From a virus, in IMG/VR virus record IMGVR_UViG_3300043446_001420, positions 1 through 23,776 of that record: DNA of 23,776 nt. The stretch is one strand, 5' to 3'. The position numbers were made by a program, and so were the translations under genes. Positions 3,279 through 20,745 of this stretch are shown in pieces. The notes under the pieces were generated by a model. It worked only from the letters and a program-made list of their open reading frames with translations. It did not search any database and was not told the origin of the DNA. Each line of letters starts with the position of its first letter. The first letter of the stretch is position 1.

Positions 3279-3301
3279 GCGTCCGCCCCGCGCCCGGGCG
3301 A

Positions 3302-3655: not shown

Positions 3656-3672
3656 TTTCATGATCCTTTCGA

Positions 3673-4152: not shown

Positions 4153-4176
4153 TTGGGAATCTCCTTTCTAGGGTTT

Positions 4177-4202
4177 GGCCCCTCCCAGAATTGAGAGGGG
4201 CC
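4177..4202 (-). terminator. Hairpin after the major capsid gene
   Basis: An 8-bp perfect stem (GGCCCCTC/GAGGGGCC) with a 10-base loop begins eight bases downstream of the capsid TAA. On the minus strand it is followed by AAACCC, not by U residues. Attenuation or mRNA stabilisation that sets capsid expression apart from its neighbours is as likely as termination. Confidence 0.4.
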
Positions 4203-4209
4203 GTTTCGG

Positions 4210-5124
4210 TTACGAAGTCGGGAAGCTGCCGTAGATGGCGCGCGGATCGTTGTAGCCGAAGCTATAACGCTCGTAGCCCTTCACCAGCAGGTTATCGGTC
4301 ACAAAGTCAACTTGCATGTCCATTTCGAAGGGCATGCGCAGCATGTGAACGAGACCATCGACGTTGGTCGTGAGGAACCAAGCGTAGTTGGACGTCAAGA
4401 AGTCCAGTACGATGTAGCCCTCCGGCAGACCGCCGCTGGTGGTCAGGATCGCGTTGACATCGTTGTTCGCAGTGCCCGGACGAAGCTCCGTCTTGGTAAG
4501 ACGGATAGCAGTCGGCTCGAGCGCCGGCGGAACAACGAGGCGACGGGCGCGCGACAAAATACGCAGGCCGGCTTCGTTGTAGAAGCCAGTGCGGATGTTG
4601 ATCATCGCCTGAAGCAGCGTTCCTTCGCTGAGGTCAACGTCGGTGGTCGGCTTGTTCGCCCAAGTGCCGCCGTCATACGGATGCGCGGTCGAGCAAAGCG
4701 CCTGACCGTCACCGCCGATGGCCGCATTGTACGTCGTAGCCGTGTTGAGGATGTTCGCGCCCTGAATTTCCTTAAACTGCGCAAACGACTCTTGCAGTTT
4801 GAGGTTCGTGGGGTTGAACTGCGCCTTGTACAGGTTATCGTCGATCGCCTTGCGGGTGATCGCGTAACCAAGCGCCACTTCCTGATGCTCGAAGTTGAAC
4901 ACCCAACGCTCACCAGCGTTGTTGTCGAACGCCGTAGCGCCGCCTTCCGCCTTAAGCTGCGGGAGGCCGAGGAAGCGCATCTGGGTCGAACGCTCAAGAG
5001 CCATGTTCGACTTGTGGGTCGTGAAGACCTTGTCCCACTGACGCGGGATCATGTCATACGAACCACGGACGTCGAAGAGGCCCGGGAGGAGTTCGGACTT
5101 GATTTGACTAAGTGCGACAGCCAT
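4210..5124 (-). CDS. Major capsid protein
   Basis: This 304-aa product starts at ATG 5124 behind AGGAGGG at ideal spacing, the strongest ribosome binding site of the late block, as expected for an abundant protein. The N-terminus LPGLFDVRGSYDMIPRQW and the following KVFTTHKSNMALERSTQ segment, the central LSEGTLLQAMINIRTGFYNEAG helix region and the C-terminal FVTDNLLVKGYERYSFGY-DPRAIYGS ending are typical of HK97-fold capsid proteins of the Mu gpT-like type. 'P-P-A-L-E-P-T-A' at about 200 is a common turn in this family. The gene follows scaffold and a probable decoration gene. No protease gene or N-terminal delta domain is evident, so a separate scaffold is likely. Capsid identity is well supported by pattern and context. 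Confidence 0.85.
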   Translation of the reverse strand: MAVALSQIKSELLPGLFDVRGSYDMIPRQWDKVFTTHKSNMALERSTQMRFLGLPQLKAEGGATAFDNNAGERWVFNFEHQEVALGYAITRKAIDDNLYKAQFNPTNLKLQESFAQFKEIQGANILNTATTYNAAIGGDGQALCSTAHPYDGGTWANKPTTDVDLSEGTLLQAMINIRTGFYNEAGLRILSRARRLVVPPALEPTAIRLTKTELRPGTANNDVNAILTTSGGLPEGYIVLDFLTSNYAWFLTTNVDGLVHMLRMPFEMDMQVDFVTDNLLVKGYERYSFGYNDPRAIYGSFPTS

Positions 5125-5140
5125 TGTTCAGGCCCTCCTA

Positions 5141-5752
5141 TCAGATGCCAGTCGTCTGAAGCGTATTCGCTTCGACGATGACCCAGTTGTTAGCGGAGGC
5201 CGCATCAGAGCCGTTGCCGACACCCGGATACAGGCTGATGATACGGAACGGCAGAGTTGACGTCGTACCAGCAGTGTACATATCCAGATAGGCACCCGAA
5301 CGACCGCTAAGCGTGCTGCCGGTTCCCATAGCGACGTCGGCGTTCTGGCCAACATCCGCCTGAGTAACAGCAGACGCGGTGGTGTTGCTGTTGCCAGTCT
5401 GCACGACGAAGCGCGGAGCCGCGCCCGGCGAGCAGGGGATGACGTAAGCAACAATGCTCGACTGAGCCGAAGAGGCGACGTCGCTGCCCGGCCAATAGGG
5501 CGACCAGACGACGCGACCCTGCGAGGTCGAGAGGTATTCGCAGCCGACAAAAATGCCAACCATCTGCGATACCGCAGTACCAGCGGTCCAAGCGGCAATG
5601 TAACCGCCCGAACCAAGCTTCACGGGGTCACCCGTGTAGATTTTGTTGGTGTCAGAGTAGAGGATGGTAAAAGCGGCCTGTTCGAAATTCGGAGCAGCGC
5701 CCGGATTACCACCGATCTGGCTGAAACCAAACGGAGCGAAAGTGTTAGACAT
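5141..5752 (-). CDS. Putative capsid decoration/stabilising protein
   Basis: This 203-aa product starts at ATG 5752 with an AAGGA-type site and ends 16 bases before the capsid start. The N-terminus is MSNTFAPFGFSQIGGNPGAAP. The body is rich in Gly, Ala, Ser and Thr with short beta-prone stretches (AFTILYSDTNKIYTGDPVKL, GIFVGCEYLSTSQG, PFRIISLYPG). A segment like 'F-x-G-x-x-Y-x-S-x-x-G-x-x-x-x-S-P-Y-W-P-G' (about 68-90) is familiar from proteins found just upstream of capsid genes in short-tailed phages. The position and virion-like composition suggest decoration or cement. The function is not proven, and other head proteins are possible. Confidence 0.65.
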   Translation of the reverse strand: MSNTFAPFGFSQIGGNPGAAPNFEQAAFTILYSDTNKIYTGDPVKLGSGGYIAAWTAGTAVSQMVGIFVGCEYLSTSQGRVVWSPYWPGSDVASSAQSSIVAYVIPCSPGAAPRFVVQTGNSNTTASAVTQADVGQNADVAMGTGSTLSGRSGAYLDMYTAGTTSTLPFRIISLYPGVGNGSDAASANNWVIVEANTLQTTGI

Positions 5753-5788
5753 TCCGTCTATCCTTCTTTCCTTGGTGGATGCTCTTGT

Positions 5789-5802
5789 CTGGCGCGCGCC
5801 AG
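5789..5802. other. 14-bp perfect palindrome in a 98-bp gap
   Basis: CTGGCGCGCGCCAG is self-complementary and lies between the decoration-type gene and the upstream 185-aa gene. As RNA it would fold only with a tiny loop; as DNA it could be a dimeric protein site. Nothing else is evident in positions 5753-5850. Confidence 0.3.
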
Positions 5803-5850
5803 TTAGAGCGGGTTAAGCACCCAGAGCGCCTGAGTGTATTCGTGAACGAC

Positions 5851-6408
5851 TTAGTCTTCGATCCGCAACTGCGGGCGATTGACGTCTGCCGGTTCATAGG
5901 AACGGTTCACACGCGGACGCACGCCCGCATGATCGCCGGAGAAACCGCGAGGAAGCTGCTGACCGAGCTGCTGCCGCTGGTAATTAACCAGAGCGTTAGC
6001 CGCATCAATGTCTTCCTGACGCGCTTCATTCGTAAGCTCGGACGGACGCTCCATAAGGATCATGCCGTCGCGAGTAATGGGGCCGGTATAATTATCCGGC
6101 ATGAAGAAGCCCGGATGCCTCGACGAATCGACCGGCGTCCAGCCGTTCTCCGCCATGTGCATCATGTGGGCCACGTTTTCCTGACCAAGAACGGTCTGTG
6201 ATTTCCACTCGTATGACCAGCCGTCTGGAATGAGATGGGCGGGAACATAGAACCTGTCGACGTTAGTTCCGCGCTTGCGGGACAGAACCTTTCCGTCGCG
6301 GCCAATGACTTCCTTCTTGCCGTTTTCTCGAATGGGCTCGCGAACCGTCTCTCGGATCGGCTCTTTCGGGATGTCTCGGCGGTGAGTGCGAACGCGCGTA
6401 TTGTCCAT
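5851..6408 (-). CDS. Conserved-type phage head-region protein of unknown function
   Basis: This 185-aa product starts at ATG 6408 behind AAAGGAAA. The N-terminal 50 residues are highly charged (repeated 'REPIRE'-like units: PIRETVREPIRENGKKE). The middle has a structured block with RFYVPAHLIPDGWSYEWK (about 52-69) and NGWTPVDSSRHPGFF (about 87-101). The tail is Gln/Arg/Pro-rich. I recall proteins with the 'F-Y-V-P-x-x-L-I-P-x-G-W-x-Y-x-W-K' pattern next to scaffold and capsid genes in other phages, without an assigned role. It lies between scaffold and decoration-type genes, 14 bases after the scaffold stop. A role in head assembly is inferred from place only. Confidence 0.7.
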   Translation of the reverse strand: MDNTRVRTHRRDIPKEPIRETVREPIRENGKKEVIGRDGKVLSRKRGTNVDRFYVPAHLIPDGWSYEWKSQTVLGQENVAHMMHMAENGWTPVDSSRHPGFFMPDNYTGPITRDGMILMERPSELTNEARQEDIDAANALVNYQRQQLGQQLPRGFSGDHAGVRPRVNRSYEPADVNRPQLRIED

Positions 6409-6422
6409 TGGGTTGTTTCCTT

Positions 6423-7316
6423 TTACTGCATCGCGTCAGAATACTGACCTTGCTTCATCATGATCGCCTTCCGGCGCGCGTATTCCTTGACGCCGATAGG
6501 TTCTCCCTTGTTGGGGCCAGCGTTCCAGATAATGGAACCGTCTGTTGCGGCCCGCGCTTCCCCGGCCGAAAGCTTAACGACCGCCGGCCCTCCAGAAGAA
6601 ATGTCACCACCATCGCCGCGCGAAATAGGTGCAGATGGCATTCTCGTCTGCTTCTCTTGCTTTTGCTGAACTTCGGCATACCCGAGTTTCTGATCGAGGA
6701 ACCTGAAGTAGGCGTCGGTGTCGGGAGCGAAACCTTCCGCCTCTGCTTCGTAGTGAGCCGCGATCATCCGCTTGTTCTTCGTGGGGTCTGCAATCAATTC
6801 GCGGTGCTTACGCAGATATTCCTGAGAACGCTGAGTGAACCGAGAGATGTAGGCTTCCTGCGGATCCTGATTCTGCTGCGGCTCGGTCTTGCGCTGCTCA
6901 ATGTAGTTCTTGCCTTCCTTGAGCGCGTTTACCTTTGTGACGACCTCGGCCAAAGCCTCTTGAGCCTTGACAGTGCCTTCGAAATCGCCGCTTTCCATCG
7001 CGTCTTTAAGTTGCCGCTTGATGGTTTCTCGCTCCATCTCGACGGCGTGGATGGCGTTGTTGACTGCGTCAAGTTCGCTGTCGGCAACTTTTGCAGTCGC
7101 GACCTTGGCCTCACGTTCGGCCGTTTCGGCCCGCCGTCTGGCTTCTTCTTTTTCTTTTCGTTCGGCTTCAAGTTTTGCTTCATATTCCTGAGCCTGAGCT
7201 TTAATGACGTTGGACACGTCATCGGATGCGGTGGCCTCTTCCCTTGTTGCTTCGGCGGGAGCTGCTTGCTGCTGCTCCTCGACGATTTCAACCTCAATTT
7301 CCTTGTCGTCACTCAT
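6423..7316 (-). CDS. Putative capsid scaffolding protein
   Basis: This 297-aa product starts at ATG 7316 with GGAGAG five bases upstream. The N-terminus is very acidic (MSDDKEIEVEIVEEQQQ). Residues about 40-140 form a long heptad-like, Lys/Glu/Ala-rich coiled coil (EAKLEAERKEKEEARRRAE and on). A more globular, basic C-terminus ends IGVKEYARRKAIMMKQGQYS. Acidic head, long coiled coil and basic tail are typical of phage scaffolds, whose C-terminus contacts the capsid protein. The gene lies two genes before the major capsid gene. No protease domain is visible. Identification rests on architecture and position. Confidence 0.7.
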   Translation of the reverse strand: MSDDKEIEVEIVEEQQQAAPAEATREEATASDDVSNVIKAQAQEYEAKLEAERKEKEEARRRAETAEREAKVATAKVADSELDAVNNAIHAVEMERETIKRQLKDAMESGDFEGTVKAQEALAEVVTKVNALKEGKNYIEQRKTEPQQNQDPQEAYISRFTQRSQEYLRKHRELIADPTKNKRMIAAHYEAEAEGFAPDTDAYFRFLDQKLGYAEVQQKQEKQTRMPSAPISRGDGGDISSGGPAVVKLSAGEARAATDGSIIWNAGPNKGEPIGVKEYARRKAIMMKQGQYSDAMQ

Positions 7317-7424
7317 CTAGTCTCTCCTGCCGCAGCGCGCGGCTTCTGGGTTAGTCCCGGCTTTTCTTCGGACGGTAGCCGGGGAACCGCCAACCCACGC
7401 CACAGGGAGGTGTAGCGCCGAAGA

Positions 7425-7817
7425 CTAGAAAACGACGTCAGGGGACGGGATCTTTCCCTTGACGTGGACTTCTTCAAGCAAGCGGCAGAGCGTACCGTTG
7501 AGGATCAGCGGGAAGCCGTCGCTTACTCGATAAAATACCCAGTCGCCGATTTCGACGTTCTGGCCGTGGAACTTGTTTGTATCGTCGTCGACGAAGGCGA
7601 GCGGGCCTTTTTTAAGAACGAGGCCGGCCTTCCCCTGATAACGATCTTCGTTGCGCGTCTGATCCGCGAGAAAAATTCCTGCTTTGGTTTTCTCAGGCCG
7701 AACGTAGACAGCAACAAGGATCTGATTGTGCAGGATGTCGACCTTAGAAATGTCGCCAATCTTTGCACGAAGCTCTCCTGCCGGGTCTTCAGAATGAGCC
7801 ATCAAAGATGCGGGCAT
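7425..7817 (-). CDS. GroES-like co-chaperonin (Cpn10 fold)
   Basis: This 130-aa product starts at ATG 7817, with GGAGG seven bases upstream, and overlaps the previous stop by one base (TAATG). Residues about 27-115 follow the Cpn10 order: ILHNQILVAVYVRPEKT (first strand, like 'PLHDRVIVKR'), a mobile-loop-like TKAGIFLADQTRNED with the hydrophobic triplet IFL where GroES has IVL, then GLVLKKGP, VEIGDWVFYRVSDGFP (like 'VGDIVIFNDGYG') and CRLLEEVHVKG. T4 gp31 is a known phage GroES substitute needed to fold the capsid protein with host GroEL. No GroEL gene is in the window. Expression just before scaffold and capsid suggests the same role. An N-terminal extension and a C-terminal tail exceed GroES length (97 aa). 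Confidence 0.75.
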   Translation of the reverse strand: MPASLMAHSEDPAGELRAKIGDISKVDILHNQILVAVYVRPEKTKAGIFLADQTRNEDRYQGKAGLVLKKGPLAFVDDDTNKFHGQNVEIGDWVFYRVSDGFPLILNGTLCRLLEEVHVKGKIPSPDVVF

Positions 7818-7999
7818 TACGCGGCCTCCACATTGGCAGCGGTCGCATCAACAAGCTTCACTGCATTCACCGCATCAGCAAGCTTCTTGCTGAGGATGAC
7901 AGCCGCTTCAGCCGCCTGAAGACCGGCGGCCTTCACAGCAATGTCGATAAGCTGGTTCAGGACGTTGAGCTCCTGTTCCGTAAACGAGACTTGGATCAT
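7817..7999 (-). CDS. Small helical protein, 60 aa
   Basis: The ATG at 7999 sits five bases after AGGAGA and is preferred over a GTG directly before it. The product MIQVSFTEQELNVLNQLID... is a single helical, Ala/Val-rich domain (VKAAGLQAAEAAVILSKK, about 22-39). It has no signal peptide, membrane segment or cysteines. It is coupled to the GroES-like gene by TAATG. Small proteins of this 'FTEQELNVLNQLID-AVKAAGL' type occur beside phage head genes. No function is known to me. A partner or assembly chaperone role is possible from the coupling, but this is speculation. Confidence 0.7.
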   Translation of the reverse strand: MIQVSFTEQELNVLNQLIDIAVKAAGLQAAEAAVILSKKLADAVNAVKLVDATAANVEAA

Positions 8000-8020
8000 C
8001 ACATTCTCCTTGGGTTGAGG

Positions 8021-8548
8021 TTAGCCTACTTGAGTAATCGTTACCTGAAGCGACGGTGACGCCGGATATGCGGGCGGACCAGCCGATGCGGCCTGTGCTT
8101 GAACTTGGCAGTTTGTGCTATCACCAGCCATCCACAATTCAACATAATCGTTAGCATTTAGCTGAACGATGTTTGATCCGGTGATATAAACTGGGGGACC
8201 AGCGTTAAATTGCGTATTTTGAGCAGTATAAGCAACGTCAGTTCCGTTTTTACGCAGCCATATCCATAAATTCTTGTTGCTTCCCGCAGTAATGTGCGCC
8301 TGCGCGGTCCACACCAGAAGATAATAGCCATCCGCCGCAGCAGTTAATTTTGTAGACGCAACAAGACTAATGCCCTGCGTATTCACCGGAGTATCGAACG
8401 TACAAGCTTGCGGATTAGATACGTTTGCAATGCTTTGCGTTACGCTTGAAGCAAAATCACCGCGCGCAAGCTGCGTAATGTTAATTCCTCCGCCGCTTGT
8501 CGGGTTAACAAGCGAAAGACCAGAGCCTGCAATCGTAAGGCCGCTCAC
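8021..8548 (-). CDS. Putative C1q-like beta-jelly-roll virion protein
   Basis: The product is 175 aa if it starts at GTG 8548, which overlaps the previous stop as GTGA; no better site is seen. The N-terminal 40 residues are fibre-like (SGGGINITQLARG). The rest has the strand order of a C1q/TNF-type jelly roll: STKLTAAADGYYLLVWTAQA (about 65), KNLWIWLRKNGTDVA (about 93), TGSNIVQLNANDYVELWMAG (about 125) and LQVTITQVG at the end. The 'D-G-Y-Y-L-x-x-x' and 'L-N-A-N-D-Y-V-E-L' patterns are the recognisable parts. Such domains form trimers in phage head fibres and tail appendages. Virion surface exposure is inferred. Confidence 0.65.
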   Translation of the reverse strand: MSGLTIAGSGLSLVNPTSGGGINITQLARGDFASSVTQSIANVSNPQACTFDTPVNTQGISLVASTKLTAAADGYYLLVWTAQAHITAGSNKNLWIWLRKNGTDVAYTAQNTQFNAGPPVYITGSNIVQLNANDYVELWMAGDSTNCQVQAQAASAGPPAYPASPSLQVTITQVG

Positions 8549-8892
8549 AGCGGCACCGAGCTGGCTTGTACGAACGTGGCGGTAACGGAGCCAGAGCCAC
8601 TATTAAGAACAACGCGGCAGAAGAGAGGAACAAACTGATAGTTGGTCTGAACAGTTGAGCTTGCGCCAACCGCTGCCGTGTCAGCGCAGTTAACCCACGT
8701 CATGCTGCCCTGAGCCACAGGATTCGTGGGCGAGTTCGGGTCATCCATCGACTGCTGTAGCGTGTAGTTCACGGTGCCGCTTGCAGTAAGCTGCACGCCA
8801 ACTTGACCCGGTGCCCACTCGTCAAGGCGCACAAGATCGCTGTATTTCGTGCCGCCCGACGCATTTGAAACAGTTACGGTAATCGGTCTCAT
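8545..8892 (-). CDS. Beta-rich small structural protein
   Basis: This 115-aa product starts at ATG 8892 with a weak GGAA site. It begins MRPITVTVSNASGGTKYSDLV and continues with beta-prone, Thr/Val/Ser-rich sequence. A middle part, GTVNYTLQQSMDDPNSP (about 57-73), leads to an ending GSVTATFVQASSVPL. Charge is low and no membrane helix is present. The stop overlaps the GTG start of the C1q-like gene, so the two are likely made in step and may form one appendage. I have seen proteins of this kind annotated only as hypothetical in phage head regions. A virion role is inferred from context. Confidence 0.65.
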   Translation of the reverse strand: MRPITVTVSNASGGTKYSDLVRLDEWAPGQVGVQLTASGTVNYTLQQSMDDPNSPTNPVAQGSMTWVNCADTAAVGASSTVQTNYQFVPLFCRVVLNSGSGSVTATFVQASSVPL

Positions 8893-8893
8893 G

Positions 8894-9670
8894 TTAGCAG
8901 TTCCATGCTCTAAGGGATTTGTTGATGCGCGAGTTCGGATCGCGTGCTGTTTCCGCGCTGGTGAGCTTTTTTTTAGCGCCCTTCATTCTGGCGCAGAATG
9001 AATCGCGGCGCTTACCGCCTTCCGGCTGCGGGCGTTTCAGCGTGCCGCCCGTCTCTTGGTGATACGATCGGCGGCCCTTCTCGTTGAGACCGCCCTCGGG
9101 GTTCTTTCCTTCGGCGCGCTGCCATGCGGGAGTGCGGCCGCCGCTGGCGCGCCTATACTGTTTCGCCTGTTCCTCATGGAGGTTTCTGGCGTAAGCCTCG
9201 GCGGCTTCCGGCGAAGAGAACTTTCCGAGATGCTCGCCAGTCTTCCTATAATGACTGATGGCATCATCTGGCGACATGATATAGCCGCCCATCGGATGGA
9301 ACGGATCTTTGCGTACAGTCGGCACGAGAACCTCCGCGCCGTCTTCACCGAAGTTCATCGAGCGAACCGTGCTGATCGTTCCGTCTGGGTTGTAAACCAT
9401 TGGCCGCGACTTCAGATCAACATTGCCGCGTTCTAGCAATCCACCGCCGTCTTGCCTTTTGCGGCGTTTCTTATCGAGCCGCGTCTTCGCCGCCTGCTCA
9501 AACGCCTTCGCGGTCGGAGCGCCCGGCGCACCCGGCTTGCGCATTTTCTCGCCGGAGCCGTGCTTGATGCGCTCCTGCTTGGCGTGAATGTTCGCATACA
9601 ATCCACCGCCAGACCCGTATCGCTTGCGGGCCAGCTCGCGTCCGTCGCGGGAGATGGATTTGTAGATCAC
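8894..9670 (-). CDS. Composite basic protein with DUF6321-like C-terminus
   Basis: This 258-aa product is read from GTG 9670, which overlaps the previous stop (GTGA). Three blocks are visible. An N-terminal basic block contains LYANIHAKQERIKHGSGEKM (about 24-43). A central block (about 88-172) contains RPMVYNPDGTISTVRSMNFG, VLVPTV, a His-Tyr pair and FSSPEAAEAYARNLHEEQ; I recognise it from larger phage virion and lysis proteins. The C-terminal block has GGLNEKGRRSYHQETGGTLK, SFCARMKGAKKK and the terminal SLRAWNC, matching DUF6321 as I remember it. All three occur in phage virion regions, but none has a firm biochemical role. The protein may travel in the head or tail. The combination is the noteworthy point. 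Confidence 0.65.
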   Translation of the reverse strand: MIYKSISRDGRELARKRYGSGGGLYANIHAKQERIKHGSGEKMRKPGAPGAPTAKAFEQAAKTRLDKKRRKRQDGGGLLERGNVDLKSRPMVYNPDGTISTVRSMNFGEDGAEVLVPTVRKDPFHPMGGYIMSPDDAISHYRKTGEHLGKFSSPEAAEAYARNLHEEQAKQYRRASGGRTPAWQRAEGKNPEGGLNEKGRRSYHQETGGTLKRPQPEGGKRRDSFCARMKGAKKKLTSAETARDPNSRINKSLRAWNC

Positions 9671-9861
9671 GACTTCAACTGCCTCTCAACATCCGCCAGC
9701 ATCGTAAGCACGTTTCGGTATGCGTTAATGCCTGAGATGCGTTGCTTGTATTCCGTGTAGTCAGCGGCCGCTCCGCTCAGGAGGCCGTCAGAGAGGCGTG
9801 AGATTTCCTCGCTGACAGCCTCCGCGATCATTCGTGCGACCGTTGAGTCAAACGAGTTCAC
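9667..9861 (-). CDS. Small helical phage protein, 64 aa
   Basis: It starts at GTG 9861, overlapping the stop of the Lys/Gly-rich gene as GTGA, and ends overlapping the next GTG in the same way. The product is all-helical: [19 protein letters not shown], then [19 protein letters not shown] and [10 protein letters not shown]. The 'Y-T-E-Y-x-x-R-I-x-x-I-x-x-x-R-x-V-L' pattern is common in small phage proteins located after portal genes. The function is unknown. Its size and coupling to neighbours suggest a virion-assembly helper, which is inference. Confidence 0.65.
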
Positions 9862-10757
9862 CGCTTGTGACCGTACTCTTCAATCTTCTCGAGACGGCCT
9901 TCGCCCGAACCCGCGCCGTAACGCATCTTCGGATACACCGCCCCGCCCTTCTTGTAGGTGATCGGCGGATGCTTGCGGATCTCGGCGAGATCGCCCTTGC
10001 CCGGCGCGTGCGTGACCTTGGTGCCAAGGCGCAGGCTCTCGGCCTTGACCGGCGTGATGTTTGATTCAACACGCCCGCCCTTCTTGCGCATCGGCATCGG
10101 AGGCATGCCCGGAGGACCACCAGCGGGCGGCATGCCCGGCGCAGCCCCTGCGGGCGGCATCGGCATCGGGACAGGAACGCGCGGCATCGGTGCCGGCATC
10201 TGCGGCATCGCGGCCTTGTCTTCACCACCGGCCGGACGCGGCGGAGCCACGATCACGTTGACGTTCGTGCCGCCCTTTTTGCCCTTCTTGCCGCCCATGA
10301 GACGACCGCCGGACGCGCGCTTGGCGACGTGCCCGCCCTTCTTGAGCTTCGACAGGTCGGTATGCTCGCCGTGATGCTCCTGCTTGTCATGCATTGCCAT
10401 CGCGCGCTTGATCAGCTTCTTGTCGGCAGCAAGGTCGGCAGCATCAACGTGGCCGCCCTTTGCCCGCTGCGCCTCGATGCGGCGGATCTGCTCCGGCGTA
10501 TAAAGATCGGTCGGCTGCGGGCGAACGCCTTCAGGACGCGGGCGCGGCATTGGGACCGGCATGCGCGGACGACGATCAAGACGCTCGGCAGTAGGGCCAC
10601 CGTCCGCCTTCATCACCTTGCCGCCCTTCTTGCGGTGGGCGATCTTCGGCTTGGCGTGGCTCGCGCCACCGTGAGCCTTCTTGGTGTAGCCCCCGCACAT
10701 GCGGGTAATCTTATCGACGTGGGACTTCTTGGCATCATGCCGGTACATATGGGCCAT
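9858..10757 (-). CDS. Large Lys/Gly- and Pro/Met-rich protein with KKGG motifs
   Basis: This 299-aa product starts at ATG 10757, with AAGGA nine bases upstream. At least six short KGG/KKGG units are spread along it ([40 protein letters not shown]), often followed by a hydrophobic residue. A Pro/Met/Gly tract (about 185-230, [15 protein letters not shown]) separates the halves. The C-terminus is [19 protein letters not shown]. The overall charge is strongly positive and much of it is probably disordered. It directly follows the portal gene. Binding to packaged DNA or to the portal is plausible for such composition, but no family function is known to me. The smaller gene at 3302-3655 shares the KGG style. 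Confidence 0.65.
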
Positions 10758-10769
10758 AGCGGCGGTTCC

Positions 10770-12863
10770 TTATTGCGTGGGAAGGGGTGGAGTTTTGGTG
10801 ACCGTCCGCTCAGCGAGAGCCTCAGCCTCCGGATGCACCGCCAGCGTGCGGGCCAGATCAATCATTGCGAGCTGCTTCTTCAGCTCGCGGTCTTTCGTCT
10901 TCTCAATCATCTCAGCCTGCGCGATCGCAGCCCGCGTCTTGAGTTCGTCCATCTTGGCGGCGGCCTCGACCTGAACCTTCGCCATGCGAGGATCGGGCGG
11001 CTGCGCGGCTGGCATCGTCGGAGGCGCAAACAGGCTTTCAGGATTCTCCCAGCCCATGATCTTGAGAACCTGAAGATCAACCGCCTTGGGATCGTAGAGC
11101 GCCGGGCTCGCTGACTGTAGCTGCTTGACGGCCGTCGCCTTCATGAGGCGATGCAGATGCGACGGCGTGTTCGGATCGGCGACCGGCACGATGCCGTAGG
11201 TATCGACCGCCGCGAGGAACCGCTCTTTGTCCCAGTCCGTGGCGGGCCTTTTGTTGCCGCGCCAGAAAGCTTCCGGCTCTTCGCGGAACAGGTCGAGCAG
11301 GAGCTCGAACTCCTCGCTCTGGGCCTGATGCATGTTCTTGTGAACGGCGCTCTCGACCTTGGTCGCCTGCTCGATCAGGGCGATCGTGGTGCCGACCGGC
11401 GCGTCCTGCTTGCCCTCGCCGACCTTGATCTCGGCAGCGCCACCAACGCGCTGTGCGGCCTGCGTTACCTTGTCCATCATGCCGAGAAGGCCCGGCGTGA
11501 TGTCTTTATACGGCAGCGGCATCACCGCTTGATTGATCGGCATGCCTTGCGTATCGACGACAACACCAGAGCCGGCAGCAACGCGCATCTCATTCGTTTG
11601 TTGACGGGCGGCGAGCTTCGCGACGAGGAAGCCCGGGAAGTTGGCGAACATGCCGGTGTCGAGCGCCTCTCGCCATGCAGCGGTCAGGGCCGACGCCGAA
11701 TTGCCCAGCAAGTGCAGCAGGCCCCATCCGTACAGGCCAAAGCCGCGAATGTAGGGATAGTGGACGAACGTCGTGCGCGGATCGCAATCCTCGTTGTCCT
11801 CGTCCCAGTTGCGTCGAAGCTCCAGAATCTCGCGGCTGTCCTTGTCGATCGTCACGCGATACGGCAGCAGCAAGCCCTTGTTGCGCAGATGGCGCGGCGC
11901 GAACCGATCAAGGTCAAGTTCGCAATAGCATTCGTAGATCGTGTGTTCGCGGTCTTCCTGCCGCGTCGATTGAATGTCGATGCCCTCGATGTTGGCTTCC
12001 TTGAGATCAACCACCGAGTTCTGCGGCGTCGGTGGCGTCAATTCAATGTCGCGATACACGCCGAGGAACTTCATACGCTTCATGATCGCCGGGCGCATCT
12101 TGATGCGCTGCGTGATCCGGCCAGCATTGGCGAGGTCGGTCGCGGCGTTGTTCACGATCAGGTCTTGCGCGTCGATGCTTTCGGACACCGGACGCCGGCG
12201 CATCGGGTCCATGTAGACTTTCTTGAAGCCCGAGCCTCCGAACACCGTCATCAGCAACATGCGATCGGTGTCGGGGTAATACTCCTTCGCCTTCTTCGTG
12301 AGATAGAAGTTGAAGTCCTTCTCGAGGCAATCGGCCAACTCGTCCGACTGCGGCGATCGCTGGCCCACGTCCTTGACCTTGACGGGGCCGTCCGCCGGGA
12401 GAAGCTCGGCGCGTGCATTGGCCCATGCCATCAGAACGGATTCAAGCAGCAGCGGGTGCCGCACCACGGACATGCCCTCGACCGGCGCACTGGTCGATCC
12501 AACGTCGCCCTTCGGTTCTTCAAGCTTGAGGCCGAGAAGCTCAAGGCCCCTCGCCCGCGTCTGCAACCACTCGGCCCGTGACTGATCGTCCGCCTCGATG
12601 GCATCGATAAGCTGTTCGCCGATACGTCCAAGCTCGCTTTGGTCCATCCGCATCGCGAGATTGTCGTAGTGCTTGTTTTCGCCCTCATCTACCTTTGGCG
12701 AGAGGTCGACAGCCACGGATCCGTCAGGAAGCTCGGTCACGATGCCTTCGTCCGTCATTGCGGACGGGCCGCCGTTGTCGATCTCGATGATGACGTCCTG
12801 CGCAATGGCGTCATCCGGTCGATTGCCGGGTACGTTGCCGAGGTTCCAGATATTGTCAGCCAT
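10770..12863 (-). CDS. Portal protein
   Basis: This 697-aa product starts at ATG 12863, three bases after the terminase stop. Its size and position right after TerL fit a portal (head-tail connector) of short-tailed phages. Visible blocks are an acidic N-terminus, the helical HPLLLESVLMAWANARAELLP segment (about 137-157), a tail-facing region with DRMLLMTVFGGSGFKKVYMDP (about 200-220), YPYIRGFGLYGWGLLHLLGN (about 372-391), and the stem and crown region EIKVGEGKQDAPVGTTIALIEQATK (about 475-500). The C-terminal tail is a long Ala/Lys/Glu coiled coil (ARTLAVHPEAEALAERT). The portal forms the DNA channel and docks the terminase. The call is well supported by pattern and context. Confidence 0.85.
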   Translation of the reverse strand: MADNIWNLGNVPGNRPDDAIAQDVIIEIDNGGPSAMTDEGIVTELPDGSVAVDLSPKVDEGENKHYDNLAMRMDQSELGRIGEQLIDAIEADDQSRAEWLQTRARGLELLGLKLEEPKGDVGSTSAPVEGMSVVRHPLLLESVLMAWANARAELLPADGPVKVKDVGQRSPQSDELADCLEKDFNFYLTKKAKEYYPDTDRMLLMTVFGGSGFKKVYMDPMRRRPVSESIDAQDLIVNNAATDLANAGRITQRIKMRPAIMKRMKFLGVYRDIELTPPTPQNSVVDLKEANIEGIDIQSTRQEDREHTIYECYCELDLDRFAPRHLRNKGLLLPYRVTIDKDSREILELRRNWDEDNEDCDPRTTFVHYPYIRGFGLYGWGLLHLLGNSASALTAAWREALDTGMFANFPGFLVAKLAARQQTNEMRVAAGSGVVVDTQGMPINQAVMPLPYKDITPGLLGMMDKVTQAAQRVGGAAEIKVGEGKQDAPVGTTIALIEQATKVESAVHKNMHQAQSEEFELLLDLFREEPEAFWRGNKRPATDWDKERFLAAVDTYGIVPVADPNTPSHLHRLMKATAVKQLQSASPALYDPKAVDLQVLKIMGWENPESLFAPPTMPAAQPPDPRMAKVQVEAAAKMDELKTRAAIAQAEMIEKTKDRELKKQLAMIDLARTLAVHPEAEALAERTVTKTPPLPTQ

Positions 12864-12866
12864 TTA

Positions 12867-14501
12867 TCAGACCGGATAAAGAGCGGCAGTCCTGCCGACA
12901 CGGAAGCGATTGATTTCGGTGACTTCGTATTCGTGTTCGTGCCGATGCACGATCATGCCGCTGTCGCGCAGGAACTTCATGGCCTGCGTCGCGCTGTCGG
13001 TCAGATCCTTGTATCGGCCCTTGGGGAACGATTCCATTTCGGACATTACGGTCTCGGCCCATTCCTTGTCTGGCGCGTAGACGAGTAGCTGCGAGAACAC
13101 CGGCTGCACCGCGTGCGCGCGGGATACCTTGTCACCGTGCGGCTGCACAATTTGCACGCCCCAACCTTCGGTGCCATGCAAGCGCCTGATCTCTTGTGCA
13201 GCCGTCAGGCCAGACGCCTTGCCTTCGATGATGAGACGGTCAGCCTTGTACCGTTGGCATGTATGCGCGAGCCATTCGACGAGGCCCCATTGCCCCTGCG
13301 TGCGTCGAGCGAACTCCGCATTCGTCTCATTGGTAAGGCGCGGCTCGTACTTGCCGTGCATTTCGAGGTGCTTGCGCCATGCGTGCATGAGCATGATGCG
13401 CGGCGCTCCAGTCTTGTCGCGCCACAGGCCCCACACCGTGCAGCCTGTCGGATCGTTAGCTTCTTTCTCAGTGTATGCGGTGTCGGCCGACACCAGAACG
13501 AACTCCATCGGCGGGAAGCTGTCGTCTGGGCTTTCCCAGAGCTGCCACCAGTCCCGCTTGAAGATACCGCCGCCGCGCGGTGCGGGGGCTTGCTGATACT
13601 GACCAGCGTATGCGTATGGCCCGAGCGACGCCTTGAGATCATCGACGACTTTCGTCGGGAACCGTTCCGGCCAAGCAAGCTCGCCGTCTTCCTCTCGCCA
13701 GTCGGTCCAGATCGGCGTCGTGCAATGACGGCCCGCGTCATACTCCATCGGGATCATGAGATGGACGTAATCGGCGAAGCCGTTCTCGATGATCGTGCCG
13801 CTGACGTCTGCTTCATGCACGCGCTGCATGATGACGACAATCGCGGACTGCTCCATCGAGTTGAGACGGTTGCTCAACGATTCGCGGAACCACCTGACGG
13901 TCTCGCCGCGTACCGCTTCGCTCTCGCCCTCTTTAACATTGTGCGGGTCGTCAAGAATGATGCGATCGCCGCGCTCACCAGTGCCGATACCACCAACCGA
14001 CGTGGCAAGCTTTGAGCCTGTCTTGTCATTGGTGATCTTGACCTCGCCGATCTTGCGCGTCTTGAACTTGTCGCCCCACAACTCCTGATACTTTTGAGAC
14101 GTGATCAGGTCGCGGAACTTTCCGTTGTCGCGCTCGGTGAGGCCAGCAGCGTATGAGAACGCGACGTACCGCAGGTGCGGCATTTCCATCGGTCCCCATT
14201 CCCACGCCGGCCAGAACACGTCTGTTAGCAGCGACTTCATGAAGCCCGGCGGCACGTTGATCAGCAGGCGATTGATGTCGCCGAACGTGACGGCCTCGAG
14301 ATGCTGACAAATTGCATCGAGCGCCTCGCCCTCGACGAACTCCGTCTGCGGCTCAAGCACGTCCCAGAAGTAACGCACGAAATTAATCAGGCCGCCTTCT
14401 CGCGCTTGTTCCTTACGCAGCATGCGCAGGTTCAATTCGCGGTGTAGCGCGATCAAACGAGCGCGGCGCTCTGGATCAATTTTGAGCTGAGGCTTCGACA
14501 A
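12867..14501 (-). CDS. terL: Terminase large subunit
   Basis: The product is 544 aa if read from TTG 14501, which has GAAGG five bases upstream and overlaps TerS by 26 bases. No ATG is available until about residue 27, so the start is uncertain. The ATPase domain shows a Walker-A-like VPPGFMKS (about 83-90), Walker B RIILDD (about 180-185) and the coupling segment VVIMQRVHEADVSG (about 222-235). The linker YAGQYQQAPAPRGGGIFK is typical of this family. The RNase H-like nuclease domain begins VLVSADTAY with Asp at about 340, and further acidic residues follow (KDLTDSATQAMKF near the end). The enzyme packages DNA into the prohead through the portal and cuts concatemers. Identification is secure. 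Confidence 0.92.
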   Translation of the reverse strand: MSKPQLKIDPERRARLIALHRELNLRMLRKEQAREGGLINFVRYFWDVLEPQTEFVEGEALDAICQHLEAVTFGDINRLLINVPPGFMKSLLTDVFWPAWEWGPMEMPHLRYVAFSYAAGLTERDNGKFRDLITSQKYQELWGDKFKTRKIGEVKITNDKTGSKLATSVGGIGTGERGDRIILDDPHNVKEGESEAVRGETVRWFRESLSNRLNSMEQSAIVVIMQRVHEADVSGTIIENGFADYVHLMIPMEYDAGRHCTTPIWTDWREEDGELAWPERFPTKVVDDLKASLGPYAYAGQYQQAPAPRGGGIFKRDWWQLWESPDDSFPPMEFVLVSADTAYTEKEANDPTGCTVWGLWRDKTGAPRIMLMHAWRKHLEMHGKYEPRLTNETNAEFARRTQGQWGLVEWLAHTCQRYKADRLIIEGKASGLTAAQEIRRLHGTEGWGVQIVQPHGDKVSRAHAVQPVFSQLLVYAPDKEWAETVMSEMESFPKGRYKDLTDSATQAMKFLRDSGMIVHRHEHEYEVTEINRFRVGRTAALYPV

Positions 14502-14976
14502 GCTCGCCTTCGATGACTTGCGTTTCTTCCTTGATCAGAGCCAGAAGCTTATCGTCCGACACCTGATCAAATTCTCCAGCGCGACCCAGCTCGTGCTTCT
14601 GAACGTCACGCCACTTATCTGGCTGTCTATTCTTGAGCCAAAAGATCTGCGCGCTCGTCTGCGGCTGCGCGTATTGCTTGATCGTTTCCTTAATTATGTT
14701 GCCTTGAAACATGAAGGCTTTTTCTTCTTCGTATGTGTAGCCGACGGCGCACTGAAACAGACTGCGCTCGACGCGATTGTCCGAGATTTCGCGGCCCGCC
14801 TTCAGCGCCTCAGCGAACTCAGCGTGAGCGATGCGCCAGTTGTTGACCGTCGCGGTGCTGACGTTAAGCAACGAAGCAAGGTCGTCATCAGTTGCGCCGA
14901 AGCGGCAAGCGATCTCTGCCTGCTTTGCCATCTCGGGGCGATACTTGGTGACATTGCCCATCGCCGTAAAATTCAC
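14476..14976 (-). CDS. terS: Terminase small subunit
   Basis: The product is 166 aa from GTG 14976, or 161 aa from ATG 14961. A GGGGA lies directly against the GTG and 14 bases from the ATG, so neither start is clearly favoured. The N-terminal part is a helix-turn-helix DNA-binding domain: AEIACRFGATDDDLASLLNVS then TATVNNWRIAHAEFAEALKAG (about 21-62). It is followed by the oligomerisation region with ERSLFQCAVGYTYEEEKAF and KNRQPDKWRDVQ, a typical ending of TerS core domains. The acidic C-terminus probably contacts TerL. TerS recognises the packaging site and regulates TerL. The pair order TerS-TerL-portal is canonical. Confidence 0.88.
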   Translation of the reverse strand: MNFTAMGNVTKYRPEMAKQAEIACRFGATDDDLASLLNVSTATVNNWRIAHAEFAEALKAGREISDNRVERSLFQCAVGYTYEEEKAFMFQGNIIKETIKQYAQPQTSAQIFWLKNRQPDKWRDVQKHELGRAGEFDQVSDDKLLALIKEETQVIEGELVEASAQN

Positions 14977-14985
14977 TCCCCGCTT

Positions 14986-15198
14986 TTACGCCACATCGTC
15001 GTTTTTACGATCTTCGAACGCATTCTGTTCCAGCCCGATATGGACGAACTCTGGCGTTCCATCGAACAATTGCACGTACACGGCGCGGATTCTGCCGTTC
15101 TGCCGGCCGATCTTTGAGACGGTGCATGGCTGGCCCTTATAGGTCCAGTTCATGCAGAGCGAGTGCGGCAACTGTTCGAAGCGCATCAATTCGCCCAT
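14986..15198 (-). CDS. Small hypothetical protein before TerS
   Basis: The product is 70 aa from ATG 15198, or 66 aa from ATG 15186, which forms a TGATG overlap with the previous gene; the shorter form is equally plausible. It contains LPHSLCMNWTYKGQPCTVSKIG (about 10-31), strand-like segments and an AVYVQLFDGTPEFVHIGLEQ block (about 39-58). This suggests a small SH3- or Tudor-like beta barrel, which would fit a nucleic-acid or protein contact. No catalytic motif is seen. I do not recognise the family. It is transcribed with the terminase genes. Confidence 0.6.
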   Translation of the reverse strand: MGELMRFEQLPHSLCMNWTYKGQPCTVSKIGRQNGRIRAVYVQLFDGTPEFVHIGLEQNAFEDRKNDDVA

Positions 15199-15422
15199 TG
15201 GCCTTGGCTCTGGTGCATTTGCTGCGCGGCTTGCCGCATCTGCTGTTCCATGTGTTCCGCTTCCAGCGTGACGCGCTCAAGGAAGTCGTCGATGCTTTCG
15301 ACCTGCTCGGCGAGGATCTCGAGCTTTCGATGGGCGTCTCGCGCATTGACCAAGGCGAGACCAGCCAGCAGTGCCGAGCCGGTTGTCATGATCATTGATG
15401 CAGCAATAATAAATTCGGGCAT
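15186..15422 (-). CDS. Small membrane-anchored coiled-coil protein (spanin/holin-type candidate)
   Basis: This 78-aa product starts at ATG 15422. Residues 4-25 (FIIAASMIMTTGSALLAGLALV) form one hydrophobic helix without charges. The rest, about 27-78, is a charged, Gln/Glu/Met-rich coiled coil (LEILAEQVESIDDFLERV, EHMEQQMRQAAQQMHQSQ). An N-terminal anchor with a periplasmic coiled coil is the layout of inner-membrane spanins. Single-helix pinholins and general membrane proteins are alternatives. No endolysin or outer-membrane spanin is seen next to it. It lies at the start of the late block between the NusG-like gene and terminase. A lysis role is inferred from topology alone. Confidence 0.5.
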   Translation of the reverse strand: MPEFIIAASMIMTTGSALLAGLALVNARDAHRKLEILAEQVESIDDFLERVTLEAEHMEQQMRQAAQQMHQSQGQWAN

Positions 15423-15471
15423 GCTACCGCCATTGGCTGGCCAGCCTGTTTATCCGGCCATGCCTGAGCGG

Positions 15472-15954
15472 CTACTGCAATTCAGCAGTCGCCACTTCAA
15501 CGCGCGTCGAACGACCGAGGAGTTCCAGCAGAACGAACTCACGATCGCGAGCGGATTGACCAACCCACACAGCCGGGAGCCCAGTAAAGGGCCCATCGAT
15601 CAGTGTGACGCGCTGTCCGGCTTTGAAACGACTTGCCGGCTCCACGATGGTTTCTTCGATCTTCCGCACAGTCTCGATCACGCTATCACGTACCTGCATC
15701 GGCTGCTCGCGTTGGTGATCCATAATGATCGACGCTAGACCTCTCGTACCACGAAGGGACCACCAACGATCAGAATCAACTTCCACGAACAGATAACGCG
15801 GGAACAACGGCACATCGACTGTTACCTTTCGACCCTTCTTGACCCGTTGGCGGCGCGCCATCGGGCAGTAGGCTCGATACCCCTGCCTTTCGAGATGCAC
15901 CAGCGCGGTGCGCTCTCTATTTGGCTGAGATATGGCGACAGCCCAGTATGCCAT
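15472..15954 (-). CDS. NusG/RfaH-like transcription elongation/antitermination factor
   Basis: This 160-aa product starts at ATG 15954 with a weak TTTTAGG site. The N-terminal NGN domain is recognisable: MAYWAVAISQPNRERTALVHLERQGYRAYCP, the basic linker ARRQRVKKGRKV, and VPLFPRYLFVEVD (about 48-60), the hallmark strand of RfaH/NusG proteins. The C-terminal KOW motif is FKAGQRVTLIDGPFTGLPAV (about 110-129), followed by the strands of a small beta barrel. NusG paralogues bind the RNA polymerase clamp and suppress pausing or termination. The gene is first in a co-directional block of about 16 kb and directly beside the repeat-rich control region, so a role as late-gene processivity factor is likely. 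Its loading site is unknown. Confidence 0.85.
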   Translation of the reverse strand: MAYWAVAISQPNRERTALVHLERQGYRAYCPMARRQRVKKGRKVTVDVPLFPRYLFVEVDSDRWWSLRGTRGLASIIMDHQREQPMQVRDSVIETVRKIEETIVEPASRFKAGQRVTLIDGPFTGLPAVWVGQSARDREFVLLELLGRSTRVEVATAELQ

Positions 15955-15980: not shown

Positions 15981-16000
15981 TACGTCAACCTACGTCAACC
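15981..16000. repeat. Tandem 10-bp repeat before the NusG-like gene
   Basis: TACGTCAACC occurs twice head to tail. On the minus strand each copy reads GGTTGACGTA and thus carries a TTGACG, a near-consensus -35 element. The best -10 for the gene-proximal copy (TTAGGT, 16-base spacer) is poor and would place transcription start almost at the gene. It may be a promoter or a regulator site. Confidence 0.35.
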
Positions 16001-16001
16001 C

Positions 16002-16465
16002 AAAAAGTAACACGTACACCCCTGTACGAGTTACTTTTCTTGTAACCCATTGATTTCGCCACATAAAAAAGTAGCACGTACAAAAAAAATCGAATTGTAC
16101 GTGTTACTTTTTTGCCTCTAACCCTTTGATAACAATACAAAAAGTGAATAGTGCTTCGTAAGAGTAGCTCGTAAAGCTACAGAATTGTCACCTTTATTTC
16201 TATAGATATCTATCTACTGACCCCCCTACCTCCCCCTACCCCCCCCCTATATAAATTTTTTTATCTATCTCTGGGATTACGCACGTGTTACTTTTACTCG
16301 CACTTTCTTCAATGATTTCAAACACTTAGTTGTTCCCCGGCCTCCTAAAAATTGTGTACGTGTTACTCCTGCAACTATTGCTAGAATAATTGAAAATACC
16401 TTAGCAACAACAATCACATACAATTTCCAAAAAATCGCCAAAAAATCCAAAAAGTAGATCGTACA
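16002..16465. repeat. Array of at least eight 16-bp sites, AAAAGTARCWCGTACA, in both orientations
   Basis: Sites read by eye: plus strand at 16002-16018, 16065-16082, 16161-16175 (weaker) and 16449-16465; minus strand at 16023-16038, 16096-16113, 16282-16297 and 16355-16369. The shared core is GTA-R-C-W-C-GTAC, an imperfect dyad with GTA/TAC arms, preceded by an A-run. Two pairs face each other: 16003-16038 (15 of 16 positions complementary, loop CCCC) and 16065-16113 (13-base spacer). I saw no copy elsewhere in the window. Repeated sites in the gap between two divergent transcription units suggest operators for a phage regulator or iterons of an origin. Which protein binds is not visible from sequence. 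Confidence 0.8.
16202..16262. other. G/C-run tract with palindrome and AT-rich stretch, possible G-quadruplex / unwinding element
   Basis: A perfect 12-bp palindrome ATAGATATCTAT (16202-16213) is followed by C-runs of 6, 5 and 9 (16221-16247) separated by one to five bases, then TATATAAATTTTTTTAT. On the minus strand the runs are G6, G5 and G9, enough for four G-tracts if G9 supplies two, so a quadruplex is feasible. The tract lies inside the repeat array next to easily melted DNA. Origin or promoter functions are possible; none is shown. Confidence 0.45.
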
Positions 16466-18054: not shown

Positions 18055-18242
18055 GCGCAGAAGAAAACGCCGGGCGGTTACAAGCCGCCCTGCAAGTCGC
18101 ATCTGCATCATGCGACGAACTTGTCGAGGCCGTGTTCCTGCAAAGGCATAAGCTTACACTGGAACACGCACAACGTATCAGGAAGCATTTGGTCGACGCA
18201 TATGTCGCGGTCGATCGCATAGAGGAGGAAATGCAATCATGA
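18051..18242 (+). CDS. Small helical early protein, 63 aa
   Basis: The ATG at 18051 overlaps the previous stop, with AAGGG six to seven bases upstream. The product is entirely helical and Ala/Glu/His-rich (RLQAALQVASASCDELVEAV, about 9-28; HAQRIRKHLVDAYVAVDRIE, about 39-58). No family is recognised. It ends in an ATGA overlap with the GcrA-like gene, whose strong GAGGAGG site lies inside this gene's last codons. Confidence 0.65.
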   Translation: MSAEENAGRLQAALQVASASCDELVEAVFLQRHKLTLEHAQRIRKHLVDAYVAVDRIEEEMQS

Positions 18243-18628
18243 TCAAGTGGACACCAGAGCTGGATAACATAATCAGAGAATCTATCGTGGCTGGATATAC
18301 GGCGCGCGAGATCGGCATCAAGATTGGCGCTACGAAAAACGCCGTGCTTGGCCGCGCGAACAGGATGGGCCTACGGTCTGGCCGTACTGAAAAAAACAAC
18401 GTCGTGCGGTTTACTCCGCGATTCCGCATCTTGAAACCAACGCCACCGCCAGAGCCGGAAAAGGCCGCGAGCCCCGTCACGATGTTCAATCTCACGCCGC
18501 AGTCTTGCAGGTATCCCGTGTCCGGTGCGGGGCTTGGCACGATGTTCTGCAACGAAAACCGCATGAAAGGGCATTCGTACTGCCAGAAGCATTACCGCGT
18601 TGCGTATCGCCCCAGAGAAGTCCGATGA
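18239..18628 (+). CDS. GcrA-family cell-cycle regulator homologue
   Basis: This 129-aa product starts at ATG 18239, with GAGGAGG ten bases upstream. The N-terminal domain WTPELDNIIRESIVAGYTAREIGIKIG (about 4-30) followed by TKNAVLGRANRMGLRSG (about 32-48) is the GcrA helix-turn-helix, ending in a typical 'NAV-x-G-(R/K)-x-x-R-(L/M)-G-L' block. A Pro-rich linker follows (about 66-74). The C-terminal block SCRYPVSG, FCNE, YCQKHYRVAYRP (about 89-125) matches the GcrA sigma70-binding region. In Caulobacter, GcrA binds sigma70 domain 2 and acts at promoters with methylated GANTC sites. A phage copy could redirect host RNA polymerase. The family call is firm; the target promoters are unknown. Confidence 0.85.
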   Translation: MIKWTPELDNIIRESIVAGYTAREIGIKIGATKNAVLGRANRMGLRSGRTEKNNVVRFTPRFRILKPTPPPEPEKAASPVTMFNLTPQSCRYPVSGAGLGTMFCNENRMKGHSYCQKHYRVAYRPREVR

Positions 18629-19305: not shown

Positions 19306-20745
19306 ATGAAATATCTTTCAATTTGCTCTGGCATTGAAGCGGCCAGCGTTGCGTGGAAACCCCTTAAATGGGTGCCGCATGCATTTGCAGAGATTGAATC
19401 ATTTCCGTCGGCGGTGTTGGCACACCACTATGGTAGCAATTTACCAAACGGTCAGTTATCGACGGATGCTCCGCCAAATTATGGCGACATAACAAAATTC
19501 AAGGAGTGGCCTAATGCAAATATCGATGTTCTCGTCGGAGGAACCCCCTGCCAGTCCTTCTCGGTCGCTGGACTTCGCAAGGGACTTGCTGACCCGAGAG
19601 GAAATCTCTGTCTCACCTTCCTTGCAATCGCTGACAAATATCGTCCCTCTTGGATCATCTGGGAGAATGTCCCCGGCGTCTTGTCAAGTGGACAAGGAAG
19701 GGATTTTGGTGCCTTTCTCGGGGGACTGGGGCAACTCGGGTATGGGTGGGCTTACCGGGTTCTCGATGCGCAATATGTCCGAGTGGACGGCTTTCCCCGC
19801 GCAGTCCCTCAACGACGAAGGCGTGTGTTCGTTGTTGGACATCTTGGTGACTGGCGATGTTCCGCAGCGGTACTTTTTGAGCGCGAAGGCATGCTCGGGA
19901 ATTCTCCGCCGCGCAGAAAAGCGGGGGAAAGAATTGCCGACAGCCTTACTGTCGGCGCTAACCAGTATAGCGGATTCCAAGGAGAACCAGTCGTTGGAGC
20001 CTTAGATGCGCGCCACGCCGGTGGTTTCCAGAGCGTCCAATCTGCGGGCGCTGGGCATCTGTTGCCGATTGCCTTCTCATCAAAAGACTATGGCGCTGAT
20101 GCCACAAATGATTTGGCACCCACCTTGCGCGCAATGCCTCACAATGAAAGCCACGCAAACGCTGGGGGCCAATTAGCAATAGCCTTTTCTTTAATGCCAA
20201 TGAATAGTGGAAAAGATTTTAAGGGCCGCGAAACAGATATTGCGCAGCCCATCATGGCTGCCGGACCAACTGGAGGAAATCAAGGCGGAGATTATATTGT
20301 TCATGCTATCCAAGAGAGAGCAATAAGTGAAAATGCCGCTAATGGCCCCGATGGCATTGGGGTTCGTACAGATGGGGCCGCTTATACGATAGAGGCAAGG
20401 CAAGTTCCCCAAGCTGTTGCATTTGTACAAAATAGTAGAGATGAAGTACGACTGTTTAATGGTGATGGCCAAACGGTAGGAGCGTTAGCAGCTCAATCAA
20501 GAATAAAGCAACAAACTTACGTTGCTCCATCTTTTGGAATCAATGGCGTGCGTCGTCTTATGCCAATCGAATGCGAAAGACTGCAAGGTTTCCCCGATGG
20601 ATATACGGATATTTCGTACCGTGGAAAAAGAGCCGCCGACGGTCCTCGTTACAAGGCGCTTGGAAATTCTATGGCAGTCAATGTCATGCGTTGGATTGGA
20701 CGGCGAATTGAATCGGTTGAATGCATCTCCAAATCAAAAGTGTAA
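19306..20745 (+). CDS. dcm: DNA (cytosine-5) methyltransferase
   Basis: This 479-aa product starts at ATG 19306 with only a weak purine-rich site. All main C5-methyltransferase motifs are present in order: I, SICSGIEAAS (about 5-14, SAM binding); IV, GGTPCQSFSVAG with the catalytic Cys at about 82; VI, WENVPGV (119-125); VIII, VPQRRRRVFVVG (167-178); IX, RRLMPIECERLQGFPDGY (about 416-433); X, RYKALGNSMAVNVMRWIG. It transfers a methyl group from SAM to C5 of cytosine. The region between VIII and IX is unusually long (about 230 residues) and contains repeat-like segments (LAPTLRAM, AQPIMAAG) seen in phage orphan enzymes. No restriction partner is visible, so protection from host restriction is the likely use. 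The target sequence cannot be read. It overlaps another gene in a second frame. Confidence 0.93.
   Translation: MKYLSICSGIEAASVAWKPLKWVPHAFAEIESFPSAVLAHHYGSNLPNGQLSTDAPPNYGDITKFKEWPNANIDVLVGGTPCQSFSVAGLRKGLADPRGNLCLTFLAIADKYRPSWIIWENVPGVLSSGQGRDFGAFLGGLGQLGYGWAYRVLDAQYVRVDGFPRAVPQRRRRVFVVGHLGDWRCSAAVLFEREGMLGNSPPRRKAGERIADSLTVGANQYSGFQGEPVVGALDARHAGGFQSVQSAGAGHLLPIAFSSKDYGADATNDLAPTLRAMPHNESHANAGGQLAIAFSLMPMNSGKDFKGRETDIAQPIMAAGPTGGNQGGDYIVHAIQERAISENAANGPDGIGVRTDGAAYTIEARQVPQAVAFVQNSRDEVRLFNGDGQTVGALAAQSRIKQQTYVAPSFGINGVRRLMPIECERLQGFPDGYTDISYRGKRAADGPRYKALGNSMAVNVMRWIGRRIESVECISKSKV
19514..20005 (+). CDS. Nested out-of-frame gene inside the methyltransferase gene, 163 aa
   Basis: Within the methyltransferase gene, the frame shifted by +1 is open from ATG 19514 to TAG 20003-20005. 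The start has a full AAGGAG (19501-19506) seven bases upstream, better than that of the enclosing gene. The product begins MQISMFSSEEPPASPSRSLD and contains GDWGNSGMGGLTGF (about 70-83), DILVTGDVPQRYFLSAKACS (about 109-128) and GILRRAEKRGKELP (about 129-142). I recognise the 'DVPQRYFLSAKAC-GILRRAEKRGK-LP' pattern from other phage proteins, which argues for a real product. It covers motifs IV, VI and VIII of the enzyme. No known domain or function. A control or inhibitor of the methyltransferase, or an anti-restriction protein, is possible. Confidence 0.65.
   Translation: MQISMFSSEEPPASPSRSLDFARDLLTREEISVSPSLQSLTNIVPLGSSGRMSPASCQVDKEGILVPFSGDWGNSGMGGLTGFSMRNMSEWTAFPAQSLNDEGVCSLLDILVTGDVPQRYFLSAKACSGILRRAEKRGKELPTALLSALTSIADSKENQSLEP

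Follow-up and report, generated by a model that had tools for sequence, protein, structure and literature searches.

The window, meaning the whole stretch of DNA analysed here, is the virus record IMGVR_UViG_3300043446_001420 of 23,776 bases and is probably a fragment; most of the related phages measure 50-65 kb. Minus-strand genes fill 97% of positions 1783-15954. The initial annotation placed a NusG/RfaH paralogue at the head of a late block of about 16 kb, which the gene order bears out: the nusG-type gene opens the one-strand block and is followed by two small ORFs, the small (TerS) and large (TerL) terminase subunits, the portal, and then capsid and connector genes. The features of the divergent region and of the block are as follows.

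16002-16465 (both orientations): array of eight copies of AAAAAGTARCACGTACA in the AT-rich divergent intergenic region
16304-16322 (-): element TTTGAAATCATTGAAGAAA, conserved in position among relatives that have nusG and those that lack it
15998-16118 (-): two head-to-head site pairs, predicted to form terminator-like hairpins in the leader RNA
15472-15954 (-): NusG paralogue of the RfaH branch, 160 aa, opening the late block (Pfam, NCBIfam, tree, residues, AlphaFold2)
15420-15433 (-): ATGGCGGTAGCATG, an ops-like element in the late non-template strand that follows the nusG stop by 38 nt
15186-15422 (-): 78-aa ORF whose start codon is the ATG of the ops-like element; no family match, replaced by another gene in L002, the closest relative
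14986-15198 (-): 70-aa ORF, kept in relatives with and without nusG (25-43% identity), where it precedes TerS; no family match
14476-14976 (-): terminase small subunit (phrog_309, 1e-45)
12867-14501 (-): terminase large subunit (phrog_38, 3.6e-84)
10770-12863 (-): SU10-like portal protein (Pfam SU10_portal, 7e-16)
1783-10757 (-): remainder of the minus-strand block, including capsid, adaptor and GroES-like genes
7425-7817 (-): GroES-like co-chaperonin gene inside the late block (Cpn10, 6.6e-6)
4210-5124 (-): major capsid protein
2367-3056 (-): SU10-type adaptor

On the plus strand, a homologue of the GcrA-like cell-cycle regulators is encoded at 18239-18628 (Pfam, 3e-17); GcrA-like genes and the relatives of the phage suggest an alphaproteobacterial host. 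A C5 cytosine methylase lies at 19306-20745 (+), a large part of which likewise hits a PHROG labelled as DNA primase, an overlap that perhaps reflects a shared or fused part.

The gene at 15472-15954 (-) encodes a member of the NusG family that belongs to the RfaH branch. Its NGN domain is of the NusG type (Pfam NusG, E=4.8e-15), residues 2-159 match PHROG 6386, 'transcription antiterminator' (9e-25), and E. coli RfaH is its top solved relative, aligned over the full length (1.6e-15; 27-29% identity). Among the NCBIfam models, the best score is that of RfaH at 115.3 bits, which is below the curated equivalog cut-off of 144.5; UpxY (83 bits, cut-off 100), NusG (50 bits, equivalog cut-off 135.7) and LoaP (37 bits, cut-off 125) score less and are likewise under their cut-offs. 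Its neighbours are phage genes, not the secE and rplK that accompany housekeeping NusG. In a phylogeny rooted on housekeeping NusG, the window protein and L002 (55% identity) group with the RfaH of E. coli and Pantoea (support 96/83), within a wider RfaH-side clade that includes alphaproteobacterial paralogues (99/96), the nearest rows to the window protein by path. The NusG-like proteins of rhizobial phages fall into a clade of their own (99/93) next to housekeeping NusG. A second tree left out L209, a mistranslated row, and three long branches. A single origin for all phage NusG genes is rejected (p-AU 0.016), and a clade of the window and the rhizobial phages alone is borderline (p-AU 0.055). 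The proposal of a specialised NusG paralogue thus agrees with its place on the RfaH side of the tree, and the protein is, as far as sequence can tell, very likely a late processivity factor.

The residues of the window protein, numbered as in RfaH, point the same way. The side chains of RfaH that directly contact ops are K10, H20, R23 and R73 (PMC5995543); three of the four (H20, R23 and R73) are kept, as are Q24, T72 and G74, while the base-contacting K10 is replaced by Q. At position 56, where F contacts RNA polymerase, the protein is of the RfaH type, and at 165, where the F of NusG contacts Rho (PMC7593976), it carries L, the Rho-contact loop of NusG being lost. E48, needed for the autoinhibition of RfaH, is V; I93 and R138 remain. 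The NGN and KOW motifs first read from the letters are recovered in the Pfam match, in the full-length RfaH alignment and in an AlphaFold2 model built on a 4-row alignment, which predicts an NGN domain and a beta C-terminal domain (mean pLDDT 85.6; C-terminal domain 82-88) matching the KOW structures of NusG and RfaH; with a 2-row alignment, the modelled KOW domain is unreliable.

A search for ops limited to the region upstream of nusG returned nothing above chance, and a whole-window search of Rfam gave no match; the ops-like element was noticed afterwards, on reading the stretch behind the gene. Past the nusG stop, the late non-template strand reads ...CCAATGGCGGTAGCATGCCCG..., in which GGCGGTAGCATG (15431-15420) differs from E. 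coli ops, GGCGGTAGCGTG, at just one of 12 positions. It is the single 11/12 match in the window, where 0.07 are expected on both strands together. In E. coli, RfaH recruitment is reduced, in most cases to nothing, by substitutions at bases 3-8 of ops, and T11 and G12 set the pause; the phage element has all of the bases required for loading (3-8) and pausing (11-12), the only change being G10 to A. As with RfaH, the element lies on the non-template strand of the target region, and it does so in three lineages (see below). From its sequence, the element at 15420-15433 (-) is well supported as an ops-type recruitment signal for the RfaH-like protein.

A protein search of IMG/VR and GTDB genomes for further relatives yielded only L002, which carries the same 14-mer ATGGCGGTAGCATG at the same spacing after nusG, with diverged flanks and a different next gene. 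An IMG/VR scan found the 14-mer in 115 stretches, about the chance level by a back-of-envelope estimate; among the loci fetched, L330 and L377, which are identical in the compared region and count as one lineage, have a nusG-family gene (33% protein identity to that of the window) directly before it. Their order is nusG, ops, an HNH-like gene starting at the ops ATG, and then TerS and TerL, both putative and read from the ORF sequence. The identical 14-mer lies 35-37 nt after nusG in L002 and L330/L377. Gene and ops are therefore common to three phage lineages, each with a different next gene, which in all three begins at the ATG of the element.

The arrangement extends to bacterial replicons. 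The ops core GCGGTAGC, chosen after the phage element had been seen, occurs at most 130 nt behind the gene in 13 of 33 alphaproteobacterial chromosomal or plasmid paralogue loci (P 1e-24, with 0.003 expected per 130-nt stretch). Because the 130-nt limit followed from the first loci, 40 held-out loci were then tested, of which 12 have the core behind the gene (P 4e-19). The loci are partly non-independent, so that the P values overstate the case, the effect being about hundredfold. Overall, about a third of the loci (25/73; L213-L242 and L255-L294, from alphaproteobacterial genomes) have the core 50-130 nt behind the gene, and one named plasmid paralogue sits in an exopolysaccharide locus. Placing the signal after the gene is, judging by these loci, possibly a general recruitment design of the alphaproteobacterial RfaH-like paralogues.

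The coincidence of the element with a start codon invites another explanation, namely that the NusG paralogue has no sequence-specific recruitment and acts in cis on the operon that encodes it while being translated, GGCGGTAGCATG being a conserved translation-initiation context. The shared start codon of the three phage lineages would fit, AlphaFold2 leans to an open, beta KOW domain, and cis action has been proposed for monomorphic RfaH (PMC13015549). Yet a start site would call for neither a stretch of 14 unvaried bases ahead of three different genes nor a match to ops, three of the four ops-contacting residues are kept, and, since most chromosomal copies of the core have no following ATG, the core is more than a start-codon context. 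This explanation is accordingly considered improbable, although it retains a small share of the likelihood.

The unusual repeat array next to the gene, to which the initial annotation drew attention, is real: eight copies, four per strand, lie in 16002-16465, and its motif gives 9 matches against 1.9 expected, a number reached in none of 100 shuffles. The hairpins predicted for the two head-to-head pairs have energies of -20.7 and -19.2 kcal/mol (z -5.5 and -4.8). The array was rejected as a recruitment site of the NusG paralogue, and this role is very improbable. In its favour, the motif occurs in the window and, arranged differently, in L002, both of which carry the gene, whereas L003, L004, L009 and L010, with no nusG at that position, do not have it in this form; this co-occurrence sets one lineage against one lineage. 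Sites on both strands and in head-to-head pairs are typical of double-stranded operators, however; the GTAGC forms, whose likeness to ops is weak, lie on the late template strand; the array region has no significant ops match; and the array is absent from L330/L377, which carry nusG and ops. The array thus probably represents operators or an origin, unrelated to recruitment. The 54-nt duplicated repeats before nusG in L002 fold as RNA hairpins no better than shuffles. The short element TTTGAWATCATTRAAGAAA is also found, at the same place, in L003, L004, L009 and L010, where the surrounding inverted repeats differ. Small DnaA domain IV proteins are encoded beside the AT-rich region in L003 (650-1117, -; Bac_DnaA_C 5e-17) and likewise in L010 (1654-2109, -); no such protein was found in the window.

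The nusG gene is sporadic in the phage group of the window: MW202675, CRP-901, GB2A, HTVC027P and several 45-70 kb contigs of the group have no NusG-family gene, and its function is therefore dispensable in the group. Between the conserved element and TerS, relatives without nusG have about 0.6-0.8 kb and those with it 1.3 kb, as would fit the gain or loss of a cassette.

That phages usually rely on N- or Q-type antiterminators is fair as a generalisation, but NusG-like ones are annotated at the early/late junction of many rhizobial phages (PMC12429752), and an antiterminator has been noted at the end of the early region in phiLM21-like prophages (PMC12429752). In every one of the 14 rhizobial prophage loci of sufficient length, the NusG-type gene is flanked by a replication-initiator-like HTH gene on one side and the terminase genes on the other. 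The cassette of rhizobial phages and prophages (L123-L135, L179, L201, L056 and L117-L122) reads HTH initiator, NusG-type gene, sometimes HNH, TerS and TerL, with very different terminases, and its NusG-type gene is a candidate equivalent of Q. These antiterminators (phi2LM21, phi3LM21, PPF1, Rivra; PHROG 6386) share with the window gene the early/late junction before the terminase; in contrast to it, they belong to the clade next to housekeeping NusG, are the last early gene and have no ops core, which was found behind none of their 18 loci. Phage NusG-like antiterminators are thus already known, and the window adds a variant, an RfaH-type member with its own ops.

Most unlikely is also that the gene is a captured host paralogue that disturbs host transcription by competing with NusG instead of serving late-gene expression: RfaH-type proteins do bind RNA polymerase more tightly than NusG (PMC7593976) and the autoinhibition residue E48 is absent, but the gene heads the late block and is linked to ops, and unrelated NusG-type genes recur at the same junction in rhizobial prophage loci.

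The preferred reading, held with good though not full confidence on the strength of sequence comparison, is that gene and ops work together as a cis-encoded RfaH/ops module for processive late transcription. By analogy with E. coli RfaH, on which all of the functional steps are modelled, transcription would enter the late block from the AT-rich divergent region, so that the RfaH-like protein is made first. RNA polymerase would pause at the ops behind the gene, exposing a GGTA loop of the non-template strand, and the NGN domain would load by binding this loop together with the clamp helices of the polymerase. The bound protein would stay on the polymerase over the remaining ~15.4 kb or so and keep host NusG off, the block being thereby shielded from Rho and from pausing, and the KOW domain may recruit ribosomes, the ATG of ops being the start codon of the next gene. 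With ops behind the gene, a feed-forward would result, whereby protection of the distal 15.4 kb has to await expression of the first gene.

The module is favoured by the RfaH-branch placement, the three kept ops-contacting residues, the presence of the loading and pausing bases, the 14-mer identical in three lineages, and the enrichment of the core behind alphaproteobacterial paralogues as opposed to NusG-type phage genes. Against it, conservation of the phage element could be partly translational, since the element also serves as a start-codon context; K10 and E48 are substituted; the models leave doubt about the fold state of the KOW domain; related phages of the group do without any NusG-family gene; and about 60% of the chromosomal relatives have no exact core.

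The window protein resembles E. coli RfaH as its tree sister, in H20, R23, Q24, T72, R73 and F56, and in an 11/12 ops. It differs from it in that the factor is encoded in its target block, whereas E. coli RfaH acts in trans, in that ops lies behind its own gene and overlaps a start codon, and in K10Q, E48V and a score under the curated RfaH cut-off. The alphaproteobacterial RfaH-like paralogues are like it in being its nearest tree rows with the ops core behind the gene, and unlike it in being borne by chromosomes or plasmids, with a longer gene-to-ops spacing. LoaP and UpxY are also NusG-family factors encoded beside their target operon, but their models score lower on the window protein than that of RfaH. 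No ops is known for LoaP or UpxY. After a single loading event, lambda Q and Caulobacter GafZ accompany RNA polymerase through a phage-like late cluster (PMC11150451), as proposed here; unlike the window factor, they are unrelated proteins that use promoter-linked DNA sites, and GafZ works with host NusG.

The recruitment of RfaH paralogues encoded inside their target operons has been stated to be unknown, E. coli RfaH being the sole paralogue with a detailed recruitment mode (PMC7593976). In word searches, phages are not mentioned in PMC7593976 or PMC13015549, and in PMC7819879 only in connection with lambda-type antitermination and Rho silencing; no description of an RfaH-type switch for phage late genes was found in the searchable literature.

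To sum up, factor, DNA signal and long target block occur together on one phage and, because they are co-located and the signal also lies behind many chromosomal relatives, recruitment can be tested in a simple reporter. The evidence leans, less firmly than for the module itself, towards at least two distinct phage groups using a complete cis RfaH/ops pair instead of N or Q for their late genes, and towards gene-then-ops being a general recruitment mode of cis-encoded alphaproteobacterial RfaH-like proteins. Since a relative of RfaH heads the block and a near-exact ops follows 38 bases on, the phage probably uses an RfaH-type switch for its late genes, which would add an RfaH-type device to the known late-gene switches of phages.
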